This document shows, one piece after another, positions 4,281 through 10,355 of a stretch of DNA of 35,934 nt. A program made the translations under genes and the position numbers. Positions within the stretch are counted from its first letter, which is position 1; each line of letters starts with the position of its first letter. The stretch spans positions 1-35,934 of the forward strand of contig JAGMBW010000137.1 of assembly GCA_023129535.1 (NCBI GenBank), in the 5' to 3' direction. This DNA is from Desulfobacterales bacterium. GTDB lineage: Bacteria > Desulfobacterota > Desulfobacteria > Desulfobacterales > C00003060. The notes under the pieces were generated by a model. It saw only the letters and a list, made by a program, of their open reading frames with translations. It searched no databases and was not told where the DNA came from.

Positions 4281-4497
4281 TTATACCTAAATTGAGCGAT
4301 TTCTTTTGGGATTTGTTGTAGCCGCACGCTTTAGCCTGCGTTTATCAAACCCGCCTGCCATCGCCTAGCACAGTGTATAGCTTATATGCCAGCAAGCATG
4401 GCAATGGCGGGCAGGACCAGTTGGGTGAATGTGAAGTTGCCCCAACCAACGCAACCTAAAGGTTGCGGCTACAAGAATCGCTCAATTTAGGTTATAG
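4281..4497. repeat. MITE-like inverted repeat element (ends CCTAAATTGAGCGATT...TTGTAGCCGCA) with a nested internal inverted repeat
   Basis: Left end cctaaattgagcgatt...ttgtagccgca; right end is its reverse complement tgcggctacaagaatcgctcaatttagg; inner CCCGCCTGCCATCGC / GCATGGCAATGGCGGGCAGG. Confidence 0.75.
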
Positions 4498-4528
4498 TGA
4501 AATAAACAAAATTCGTTCCGAGTTCCGA

Positions 4529-5566
4529 GTGAAAGCCATAACAAAACGCCCTATCATAGGGATCACCATGGGAGATCCCGTTGGGATTGGACCTGAAATA
4601 ATCTTAAGAGCCCTTGCCAAAAGCGCGCTTTATAAGACGTGCCGTCCCCTAATTCTGGGCGATGTGGCGGTGATGACCGCCACAAACCAGTGGTTAAGAA
4701 CCGGCCTCAAGATTCGCCCTGTGGATAGCCCTGAGGCCGGGCTCTATCAATCGCGCAGCGTCGATGTGATCGGGCTCTCTAACCTCGATTACGGCCAGCT
4801 TCAATACGGGCACCCCACCCAGGAGACCGGCCGGGCCATGGTGGAATACATAACTTGGGGTATCGACTGGGCCATGAAAGGGCGCGTTCATGGCCTGGCG
4901 ACGTGTCCAATCAACAAACTGGCCATGCACATGGCGGGGGTCGACTTTGATGGGCATACGGAACTCCTGGCGCAGCGCACCAAGACCTCAAACTATGTCA
5001 TGATGCTCGCCGGGAGCAGGCTCCGGGTAGCCCTGGTAACCATCCACCTTCCTCTGGCCCAGGTCCCCGGAAGCCTTACCACTGAAGCAGTTTTTAAAAC
5101 CATTCGTATCACAGAAGAGGCCCTCAGAAACTCTTTTGGTATCCCGGGGCCGAAACTCGCGGTAGCAGGCCTGAACCCGCATGGAGGGGAAAACGGCTTG
5201 TTTGGAGATGAAGAGATCCGGATTATCTCACCAGCCCTCCGCCAGGCTGCCGAGGCAGGAGTTCAGATATCCGGCCCCTATCCACCGGACACGGTTTTCT
5301 ATTGGGCTCTAAAGGGGAAGTGGGATGCAGTCATCTCCATGTACCATGACCAGGGGCTGATTCCTTTTAAGATGGTCCATTTTTCCGATGGGGTGAACAC
5401 TACCCTGGGTCTGCCCATTGTGCGGACATCTGTCGATCATGGCACGGCGTATGATATTGCGGGGGCAGGCAAAGCCGACCCCGGGAGCCTGGTGGCTGCC
5501 GTTCGCATGGCTGCCCAGCACGCAATTAGACGTTATAGCGCAGAGCGCAGAGCGCATGGCGCATAG
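4529..5566 (+). CDS. pdxA: 4-hydroxythreonine-4-phosphate dehydrogenase PdxA
   Basis: PIIGITMGDPVGIGPEIILRAL, INKLAMHMAGVDFDGHTELLA, GLNPHGGENGLFGDEE, MYHDQGLIPFKM, TSVDHGTAYDIAGAGKA. ORF ATG at 4463 lies in the repeat element; GTG 4529 is preferred. The C-terminus runs into a heptamer array. Confidence 0.95.
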   Translation: MKAITKRPIIGITMGDPVGIGPEIILRALAKSALYKTCRPLILGDVAVMTATNQWLRTGLKIRPVDSPEAGLYQSRSVDVIGLSNLDYGQLQYGHPTQETGRAMVEYITWGIDWAMKGRVHGLATCPINKLAMHMAGVDFDGHTELLAQRTKTSNYVMMLAGSRLRVALVTIHLPLAQVPGSLTTEAVFKTIRITEEALRNSFGIPGPKLAVAGLNPHGGENGLFGDEEIRIISPALRQAAEAGVQISGPYPPDTVFYWALKGKWDAVISMYHDQGLIPFKMVHFSDGVNTTLGLPIVRTSVDHGTAYDIAGAGKADPGSLVAAVRMAAQHAIRRYSAERRAHGA

Positions 5567-5590
5567 GGCAAAGCGCATAGGGCAAAGCGC
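5536..5590. repeat. Heptanucleotide array, left arm (consensus SGCAWAG)
   Basis: CGCAGAG CGCAGAG CGCATGG CGCATAG GGCAAAG CGCATAG GGCAAAG CGCATCAG read directly. Confidence 0.88.
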
Positions 5591-5591
5591 A

Positions 5592-6041
5592 TCAGTCTCT
5601 TAGAGACTTTTGAAAATTGGTAATTTTTCGGCATAAGTGATCCAGTTTGTCGAGAAGTTTTTCAAGTGTGTTATCAGTGATTAGACTACGCTTCTTCAAT
5701 AGAATTAGGATATTTGCATTTTCGAAGGTGGATCGTCGAGCAATGTTTAGGAACTGGTAAAATTCGTTCGCTGAATTTGAACCGCTACCCTCCGCGATGT
5801 TATTCGACATGGACATCCCTGCACCGCGCAGTTGTTCAGCAAAACGGTAAAGCCTCTTTCTGTCGAGATCTTCAGCAATATCGAAAAGCTCGTCAGCGAT
5901 CTCAATGGCCATTTGCCATATTTCCAAATCTTGAAATCTGAATTTACCCAATCCCCTAATCTTTCCCCTCTGCCCCATGCCCCATGCCCTATGCGCTTTG
6001 CGCTCTGCCCTATGCGCTATGCGCTCTGCCCTCTGCCCCAT
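5592..6041 (-). CDS. Four-helix-bundle protein (S23 / 23S rRNA-intervening-sequence family, Avd-like fold)
   Basis: FQDLEIWQMAIEIADELFDIAEDL...RFAEQLRGAGMSMSNNIAEGSGSNSANEFYQFLNIARRSTFENANILILL is the family signature. The N-terminal ~30 aa of the ORF are array-encoded, so the true start is probably downstream. Confidence 0.88.
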   Translation of the reverse strand: MGQRAERIAHRAERKAHRAWGMGQRGKIRGLGKFRFQDLEIWQMAIEIADELFDIAEDLDRKRLYRFAEQLRGAGMSMSNNIAEGSGSNSANEFYQFLNIARRSTFENANILILLKKRSLITDNTLEKLLDKLDHLCRKITNFQKSLRD

Positions 6042-6067
6042 GCCCCATGCCCTATGCGCTCTGCGCT
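5968..6067. repeat. Heptanucleotide array, right arm (inverted; consensus CWWTGSS)
   Basis: CCCCATG CCCCATG CCCTATG CGCTTTG CGCTCTG CCCTATG CGCTATG CGCTCTG CCCTCTG CCCCATG CCCCATG CCCTATG CGCTCTG read directly. Confidence 0.88.
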
Positions 6068-6918
6068 TACCTTGCGCCAGTTATCAAGTCCAGTGTAAAT
6101 TGAGACGTGGTCTGGGCAATTTCTTCACAAAGATCTCTGTTTTTCGGCCGACAAGCTTTACCTAAGATATCAGTACAATCGGCGCTGCCAAATCGTGATA
6201 CAAATTTTCTGTACAGCTTTCCCACACGGAGACTGGTTTTGAAGGATGGGTGAAGATCCTCATTTTGAAAAACCCTGCTTCCTTCTTTCATGGCCGCGAA
6301 GCCTGCCCTGAAAACCATGGCAGGCTGTGTCCTCTGCAGTTCCGTTCCATACACTGTACCCAGTGCCAAAACGCCACCCATAAGGGCGCCACATATGTCG
6401 CCCTGAAACGCTATGCCGCCGGAAAACCCTTGAGTCATCCTTGAAATTGAATCGAGGTTAAGCTTGAGCTGCGATTCGATTCGTGACAGGACCGCACTGG
6501 CACAATGAAATTCGTCTGTGCCGAATGGGGGGGTTATCCGGTATGGCCCTTTTGGAGGGAGTGCACTATCAGGCCTTTGAATAATGTCAAAGACAGATTC
6601 TATTGATGTGTAAACAACTTTCAGGCATCTTATTCCTTTCAGGAAAAAACGCCTGATGTCATAGCCTTCTTTAAATCTTACGCCGGTAATCTCCCTGCAT
6701 TTGCTGGTACGAAAACGTCTGGTGAATCTCCGGTAAAAGTCAATACAATCACCGCATAAGCGGTGGTAGTCATGATCCTGGTTATATAAACCCAGGGATA
6801 AGACGCCCCCGGTGAGGGCACCGCAGGTATCTCCCTCGTGGCCGATACCACCGCCCAGCCCAGTTGCTGCTTTCAGTATCTTCCTGTCTTCTAAACTCAG
6901 AAACCACTGAGTTGCCAT
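6067..6918 (-). CDS. C_GCAxxG_C_C family protein (internally duplicated)
   Basis: Two copies of the family core: GLGGGIGHEGDTCGALTGGVLSLGL and GFSGGIAFQGDICGALMGGVLALGT, with further conserved Cys. Confidence 0.85.
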   Translation of the reverse strand: MATQWFLSLEDRKILKAATGLGGGIGHEGDTCGALTGGVLSLGLYNQDHDYHRLCGDCIDFYRRFTRRFRTSKCREITGVRFKEGYDIRRFFLKGIRCLKVVYTSIESVFDIIQRPDSALPPKGPYRITPPFGTDEFHCASAVLSRIESQLKLNLDSISRMTQGFSGGIAFQGDICGALMGGVLALGTVYGTELQRTQPAMVFRAGFAAMKEGSRVFQNEDLHPSFKTSLRVGKLYRKFVSRFGSADCTDILGKACRPKNRDLCEEIAQTTSQFTLDLITGAR

Positions 6919-9900: not shown

Positions 9901-10060
9901 TCTCGTTCCCATGCTCTGCGTGGGAACGCGGTCCTGCGGGCGCTCTGCGCCCTTTCCGTAAGGCTATGTATATATTGAGCTCTTGCCATGAGTTGGCTGA
10001 TTCAGTAGGGCGTAGAGCGCCCATCGGTATCCGTTCCCACGCAGAGCGTGGGAACGAGAT
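9901..10060. repeat. Inverted repeat element with ends TCTCGTTCCCAYGCTCTGCGTGGGAACG
   Basis: cgttcccatgctctgcgtgggaacg at the left and cgttcccacgcagagcgtgggaacgaga at the right; inner GGGCGCTCTGCGCCC / GGGCGTAGAGCGCCC pair. Confidence 0.8.
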
Positions 10061-10155: not shown

Positions 10156-10336
10156 GGCATAGAGCATAGCGCAAAGCGCATAGGGCATAGCGCATGGCGC
10201 AAAGGGCAGAGCGTGGCGCAGAGCGCATAGGGCATAGTGCAAAGTGCAAGAAGCCAAAACGCCATGCGCCATGCGCCATGCCCTATGCGGAGCGAAGCGA
10301 TAGATGCGCTCTGCGCTATGCGCTATGCGCTATGCG
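10156..10336. repeat. Inverted heptamer-array pair without an enclosed gene (same consensus as the arms at 5536-6067)
   Basis: Left: GGCATAG AGCATAG CGCAAAG CGCATAG GGCATAG CGCATGG...; ~15-nt spacer; right: ATGCGCC ATGCGCC ATGCCCT...ATGCGCT CTGCGCT ATGCGCT ATGCGCT. Confidence 0.88.
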
Positions 10337-10355
10337 ACAAAGCGGGGGGATTTAG

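Follow-up and report, generated by a model that had tools for sequence, protein, structure and literature searches.

An S23 gene between mirror-image arrays

The window analysed here is a 35,934-nucleotide stretch of DNA from a Desulfobacterales bacterium. It contains an element of about 0.5 kb, comprising one S23 gene between two mirror-image arrays of 7-mers, as well as a separate pair of arrays that encloses no gene. The relevant features are:

4463..5566, (+): pdxA, the left neighbour, with an array-encoded C-terminal tail
5537..5591, no strand: left inverted array, about 8 degenerate 7-mers of the GCGCATAG type, which overwrites the 3' end of pdxA
5592..5951, (-): S23 four-helix-bundle gene (PF05635/TIGR02436), probable TTG start at 5951-5949
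5961..6067, no strand: right inverted array, about 14 degenerate 7-mers, reverse complement of the left array
6067..6918, (-): C_GCAxxG_C_C-family gene, the right neighbour, in the same direction as S23
10157..10252, no strand: left arm of the gene-less pair, of the same unit class as the window S23 arrays
10265..10339, no strand: right (inverse) arm of the gene-less pair

The left array consists of forward GCGCA[T/G/A]AG-type 7-mers, while the right array carries the inverse units and extends to the stop codon of the C_GCAxxG gene. An independent array detector recovered the same two arrays and paired them as inverted (score 38 inverted versus 7 direct), and the source genome contains 256 matches to the pattern GCATNGNGCANNGNGCANNGNGCA but 0 to its reversed control. 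The original prediction had placed these arrays at 5536-5590 and 5968-6067, and a second, gene-less copy at 10156-10336; all of these held, with bounds refined to 5537-5591, 5961-6067 and 10157-10339, respectively. When considered as RNA, the arrays are paired in the predicted fold and form a closing stem around the S23 open reading frame (z = -7.0). No Rfam match was found in the window, and the S23 gene is not inside a 23S rRNA gene.

The S23 protein matches PF05635 (E 8.7e-27, 93.9 bits, curated cut-off 33.8) and TIGR02436 (91.2 bits, cut-off 24). Its structure model (mean pLDDT 97.4) matches the solved S23 structures 2gsc and 2rld, with the Avd structures 4dwl and 8ube as weaker matches (TM 0.78-0.79), which confirms both the predicted S23/Avd-like identity of the gene and its structural kinship with Avd. 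Profile searches identified no recognised catalytic domain or motif in S23. The gene had been predicted to span 5592-6041, and its longest open reading frame does reach 6041, which is inside the right array. However, the paralogue L006 begins MAKFRFQDLEIW, for which the window equivalent is [TTG]GKFRFQDLEIW. Translation therefore probably starts outside the array, with the TTG at 5951-5949, rather than with the ATG at 6041. This revision is inferred from sequence alone.

The element overwrites pdxA at its 3' end. In the window, the PdxA protein terminates in AIRRYSAERRAHGA, a tail that derives from the array, while array-free relatives end in AITRMAI or AINRMAIR. This peptide tail, SAERRAHGA (window 5520-5566), has parallels at L187/L437 and L220, where the starts or ends of neighbouring genes are likewise replaced by arrays, giving new start codons or tails (for example, an altered start of MSQISALEVCR versus MSTPSAIEVCR). 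The original prediction had proposed that related strains be compared for presence or absence of the unit at this locus. In same-genus relatives, pdxA is followed by other sequence, with arrays absent in several, and the C_GCAxxG gene is not adjacent to pdxA. A comparison of the relatives' pdxA loci provided neither a clean target duplication at the junctions of the window copy nor a fully syntenic empty site. The mobility of this particular copy is therefore inferred from its family membership and from the differing sequence after pdxA in relatives.

Inverted arrays are a general feature of S23 genes

The source genome (2.9 Mb, 98% complete) encodes 18 S23 (PF05635) genes, nearly all of which are flanked by short tandem arrays where the downstream array is the reverse complement of the upstream array. 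Each sub-family has its own unit, a feature that had not been predicted:

GTCAGTG: L001, L016, L017
TTGCTCG: L003
GTCCAAT: L004
GCGCATA: window S23
GTTGCAG: L009
GGTTACA: L011, L012
GATTGTT: L015
9-mer GGGTCTATT: L007
8-mers: L002, L008, L018

The survey was then widened to 164 bacterial, archaeal and phage S23 genes, drawn from viral contigs, from relatives and from named GTDB genomes across many phyla. Collection scans were based on alignment A2, as alignment A1, which includes all sub-families, was too diverse. Each upstream flank was compared with its own reverse-complemented downstream flank and was scored as positive if it exceeded 99% of mismatched pairs. Inverted flanks were detected for 111 of the 164 genes (67.7%), versus 0.6% of 956 control windows from the same loci, so the outcome that would have refuted the original prediction, homologues lacking flanking arrays, did not occur. 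A period of 7 dominates, with 8 and 9 as minor classes, while some S23 genes have no detectable arrays. Annotation places S23 elements inside the conserved operons cas6-cas4 and cas10-cmr3, and a reading of translated flanks suggests that carA-carB, hisA-hisF, argD-argF and yicC-gmk also host them. At L206, two tandem S23 copies share a common middle array (array-S23-array-S23-array).

Gene-less array pairs are abundant

An array census of 499,440 bases of the source genome identified 139 tandem arrays with periods of only 7 (100 arrays), 8 (21), 9 (13) and 10 (5), versus 0 arrays in a Markov-shuffle null of 0.5 Mb of this genome. The same 0.5 Mb contains 22 inverted pairs, nearly all of which are gene-less, and 18 of the 22 have spacers of 2-43 bp. 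Gene-less arrays far outnumber S23 genes, an abundance that also went beyond the single copy originally predicted. Inverted pairs without a gene are dispersed across the genome and have the unit classes seen around its S23 genes. The units of gene-less pairs best match those of S23 genes in their own genome (0.64), followed by S23 units of the same genus or order (0.56) and of other phyla (0.40), although the margin over the same genus or order is small. Two REP-like palindromes, CGTTCCCACGC..GCGTGGGAACG, are found just left of the window gene-less pair (9904-10056) and represent a separate repeat system; palindromes of this kind are associated with RAYT transposases.

Filled and empty sites show that the unit is mobile

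Species-level empty sites were sought in plasmids and phages only. An insert comprising arrays plus S23 is present in Trichormus plasmid C (L215) and a Scytonema plasmid (L233), but is missing from the same site in pCC7120beta (L225) and a Tolypothrix plasmid (L226), where the surroundings are ~97% identical. The empty site reads AAAAAGTAATTAACAAATAA and the filled site AAAAAGTAAT-[element]-GTAATTAACAAATAA, which reveals a 5-bp target duplication, GTAAT. The exact insert is ~430 bp and contains only the arrays and the S23 gene, with no transposase gene. Beyond this insertion, no other array-bearing indels were detected in a scan of four related plasmids.

The S23 subtype of the GTAAT-site element is also present at an unrelated site in the Nostoc plasmids L567 and L568. 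The L568 element has TTCTA at both ends and the L567 element has TTCTA and TTCTG, while the empty plasmids L570 and L571 feature ATTTTAGGTTATG at this site, which represents the same two codons with a different spelling. In the related phages L195-L197 (the same as L323, L324 and L330), the element is bounded by AGGAA; the phage relatives L325, L326, L329 and L354 lack the element, and this 5-mer is missing from their spacer. Finally, a ~170 bp gene-less array element bounded by GTCAT/GTGAT lies inside an S23 gene of L216 (pNPUN01) that is uninterrupted in L213. Repeats of 5 bp were therefore found at four sites, of which one is exact against an empty site and two (the phage and L216 gene-less cases) are weak. 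Across 118 elements, direct repeats of at least 5 bp at the boundaries exceeded those of permuted pairs (P 0.002-0.014, depending on the window used), although this signal is modest. No fixed terminal bases specific to the elements were identified. Sites at TraM (L218), an integrase (L213 versus L230 and L231), cas10-cmr3 (L223/L232) and cas6-cas4 (L220/L569) are filled and empty or differently filled, but their junctions are too diverged for a duplication to be read, and further viral scans provided no cleaner junction. In the Calothrix/Nostoc plasmids L213, L214 and L216, the S23 element adjoins a conserved tyrosine-recombinase operon.

This comparison of filled and empty loci shows that the S23 array unit is mobile as a family. 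A second outcome that would have contradicted the original prediction, a fixed gene with arrays that come and go independently, did not occur: the whole unit varies between near-identical plasmids and phages, with target duplications. The proposal of an undescribed mobile element is thus well supported for the family, while for the window copy it depends on family membership and the relatives' pdxA flanks.

Arrays and S23 proteins diverge together

Array similarity rises from ~0.2 for S23 pairs with <40% identity to 0.83 for those with >80% identity. When only pairs with unrelated flanks were considered, similarity was 0.33, 0.51 and 0.69 in bins of rising S23 identity, although the top bins are small. 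The array period agrees in all 74 of the 74 S23 pairs with at least 60% identity. Purifying selection acts strongly on S23 proteins from different sites, with dN/dS values between copies of 0.02-0.19 where dS could be estimated. Both co-divergence and purifying selection are expected if the S23 protein and the array ends form one functional unit. In three Flavobacteriia (L134, L148 and L153), an S23 element occupies one common site while its array units have almost fully diverged, indicative of fast array turnover.

The orientation of S23 genes differs between cells and viruses. In cellular genomes where both neighbours are co-directional, S23 is transcribed with them in 67 cases versus 3 against, whereas the same tally for viral contigs is 1 with versus 10 against, from fewer independent lineages. 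The cellular bias may reflect read-through expression; the phage bias is unexplained. In phage contigs L187-L210, S23 is mostly opposed to neighbouring structural genes, and some Bacteroidetes-like phage copies feature a TAnnTTTG promoter-like motif between the array and the S23 gene.

A model for S23 array elements

We provisionally name this family 'S23 array elements', in which a full copy is ~0.4-0.6 kb and the unit is 7 bp, or less often 8-9 bp. Their recurrent architecture, presence/absence variation, target duplication at the best site and gene-less relatives are all directly supported by the data above. We consider it likely (probability ~0.68) that the window harbours one copy of a widespread group of transposase-less mobile elements, in which insertion is directed by an S23 oligomer through recognition of its own arrays, with strand transfer by an unidentified activity. 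The role of S23 and its binding to arrays are inferred. In this model, the oligomer would bind its own arrays as DNA ends, or in hairpin form, and would then bring both ends of the element together and direct insertion with a 5-bp stagger. Either S23 or a second enzyme recruited by it would carry out strand transfer; S23 may not be the mobility enzyme, because no catalytic motif was recognised. Gene-less pairs would represent non-autonomous copies that are moved in trans. Cellular insertions would persist mostly between the genes of operons and in the direction of transcription, where read-through could express S23 and the paired arrays could form an RNA hairpin.

A bolder version of this model is possible, although less likely, in which S23 (~115 residues) would be both the array-specific factor and the catalyst of a new transposition mechanism. 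In this version, the elements would also have given rise to intervening sequences in rRNA, to heptamer repeats in cyanobacteria and Xanthomonas and, through domestication, to Avd. Catalysis by S23 is an inference, and the protein resembles none of the DDE, HUH, serine, tyrosine or reverse-transcriptase enzymes.

The main rival to the preferred model of S23-directed insertion is a MITE-like non-autonomous element that is mobilised in trans by a DDE-type transposase of the host, where S23 would be a passenger or helper and the arrays would be transposase-binding sites. This is compatible with the lack of a known catalytic domain in S23 and with gene-less copies being more numerous than S23 copies, and a fixed 5-bp duplication is typical of DDE-type transposases. 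However, a single host transposase would not explain sub-family-specific units that co-diverge with the protein; in addition, there are no fixed terminal repeats and S23 is under purifying selection across insertions. We regard this explanation as unlikely.

Three further explanations have very little support. A Y1 (HUH) transposase could be spreading the arrays as REP-type sequences: their gene-less inverted doublets form hairpins as in REPINs (PMC3116915), and 20 of 22 relatives have Y1_Tnp genes. However, no such arrays were found at Y1 genes with enough flank to test, S23 genes occur in two relatives, G007 and G011, that have no Y1 match, and a target duplication would not be expected from HUH transposition. 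A Y1 transposase is thus unsupported as the partner of S23. Alternatively, S23 could act like Avd alongside a reverse transcriptase supplied in trans, with the element spreading through RNA. The common S23/Avd fold, the transcript hairpin and the same-direction operon bias would fit this, but the apparently constant 5-bp duplication does not, and no RVT_1 match was found in the source genome (98% complete, with 18 S23 genes) or in G007, G009 or G023. A reverse transcriptase partner was rejected based on the lack of an RVT_1 match in the source genome. Lastly, an ordinary, non-mobile cellular gene with slippage-prone regulatory repeats would account for variable array copy number, for the frequency of heptamer simple repeats in bacteria (PMC4692102) and for some S23 genes that remain fixed at one site through speciation (L134/L148/L153), but not for inverted pairing or sub-family-specific units, and it is contradicted by filled/empty pairs that show precise presence/absence with target duplication and by the same element at unrelated sites.

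Relationship to known systems

S23 array elements could account for the orphan S23 proteins as well as the unexplained 7-mer repeats of bacteria, and would tie together the function of the very widespread S23 family, the possible spread of S23-bearing rRNA intervening sequences (IVSs) and the origin of over-abundant bacterial 7-mers. Should S23 be what drives movement, few protein-coding mobile elements would be smaller, and recognition would follow a code whose protein and repeat unit change in step. The mechanism is testable on the known filled/empty plasmid pair. The literature searched contained no report of S23 genes being associated with inverted arrays, although most subscription journals were outside its coverage. 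S23 array elements are real, widespread and apparently undescribed.

The 428-nt IVS of Coxiella 23S rRNA contains an S23 open reading frame, and its function and origin have been described as unclear, with old transposition hypotheses cited (PMC4990558). Like S23 array elements, 23S rRNA IVSs are ~0.4-0.5 kb, carry a gene of the same family, have inverted ends that form an RNA stem and show a sporadic distribution that suggests transfer. In contrast, S23 array elements are found between protein genes or tRNA genes and in phages and plasmids rather than in rRNA, their ends are tandem 7-9-mer arrays (IVS ends were not compared), and presence/absence with a target duplication is documented. The heptamer repeats of Xanthomonas and Nostoc also form 7-mer arrays in convergent (inverted) pairs; these have no known role and have generally not been tied to mobile elements (PMC4692102), while a heptanucleotide hairpin is present in the Nostoc tRNA-Leu intron (PMC3488679). 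The authors of these studies did not draw a link to S23.

Avd of diversity-generating retroelements (4dwl, 8ube) has the same protein fold, but S23 array elements have no reverse transcriptase and no template or variable repeats, and the source genome gave no RVT_1 match. MITEs and small insertion sequences are comparably short, with inverted ends and a short target duplication, whereas S23 elements lack a transposase gene and a fixed terminal repeat, and their S23 gene is under selection. The nearest organisational analogue is provided by REPINs (PMC3116915): as in the REPIN/RAYT system, many gene-less inverted hairpin doublets are accompanied by a small number of protein-coding full copies, but the full copies of S23 array elements encode no HUH transposase, their ends are tandem 7-mers instead of a palindrome, and a 5-bp target duplication marks their best-resolved insertion sites.
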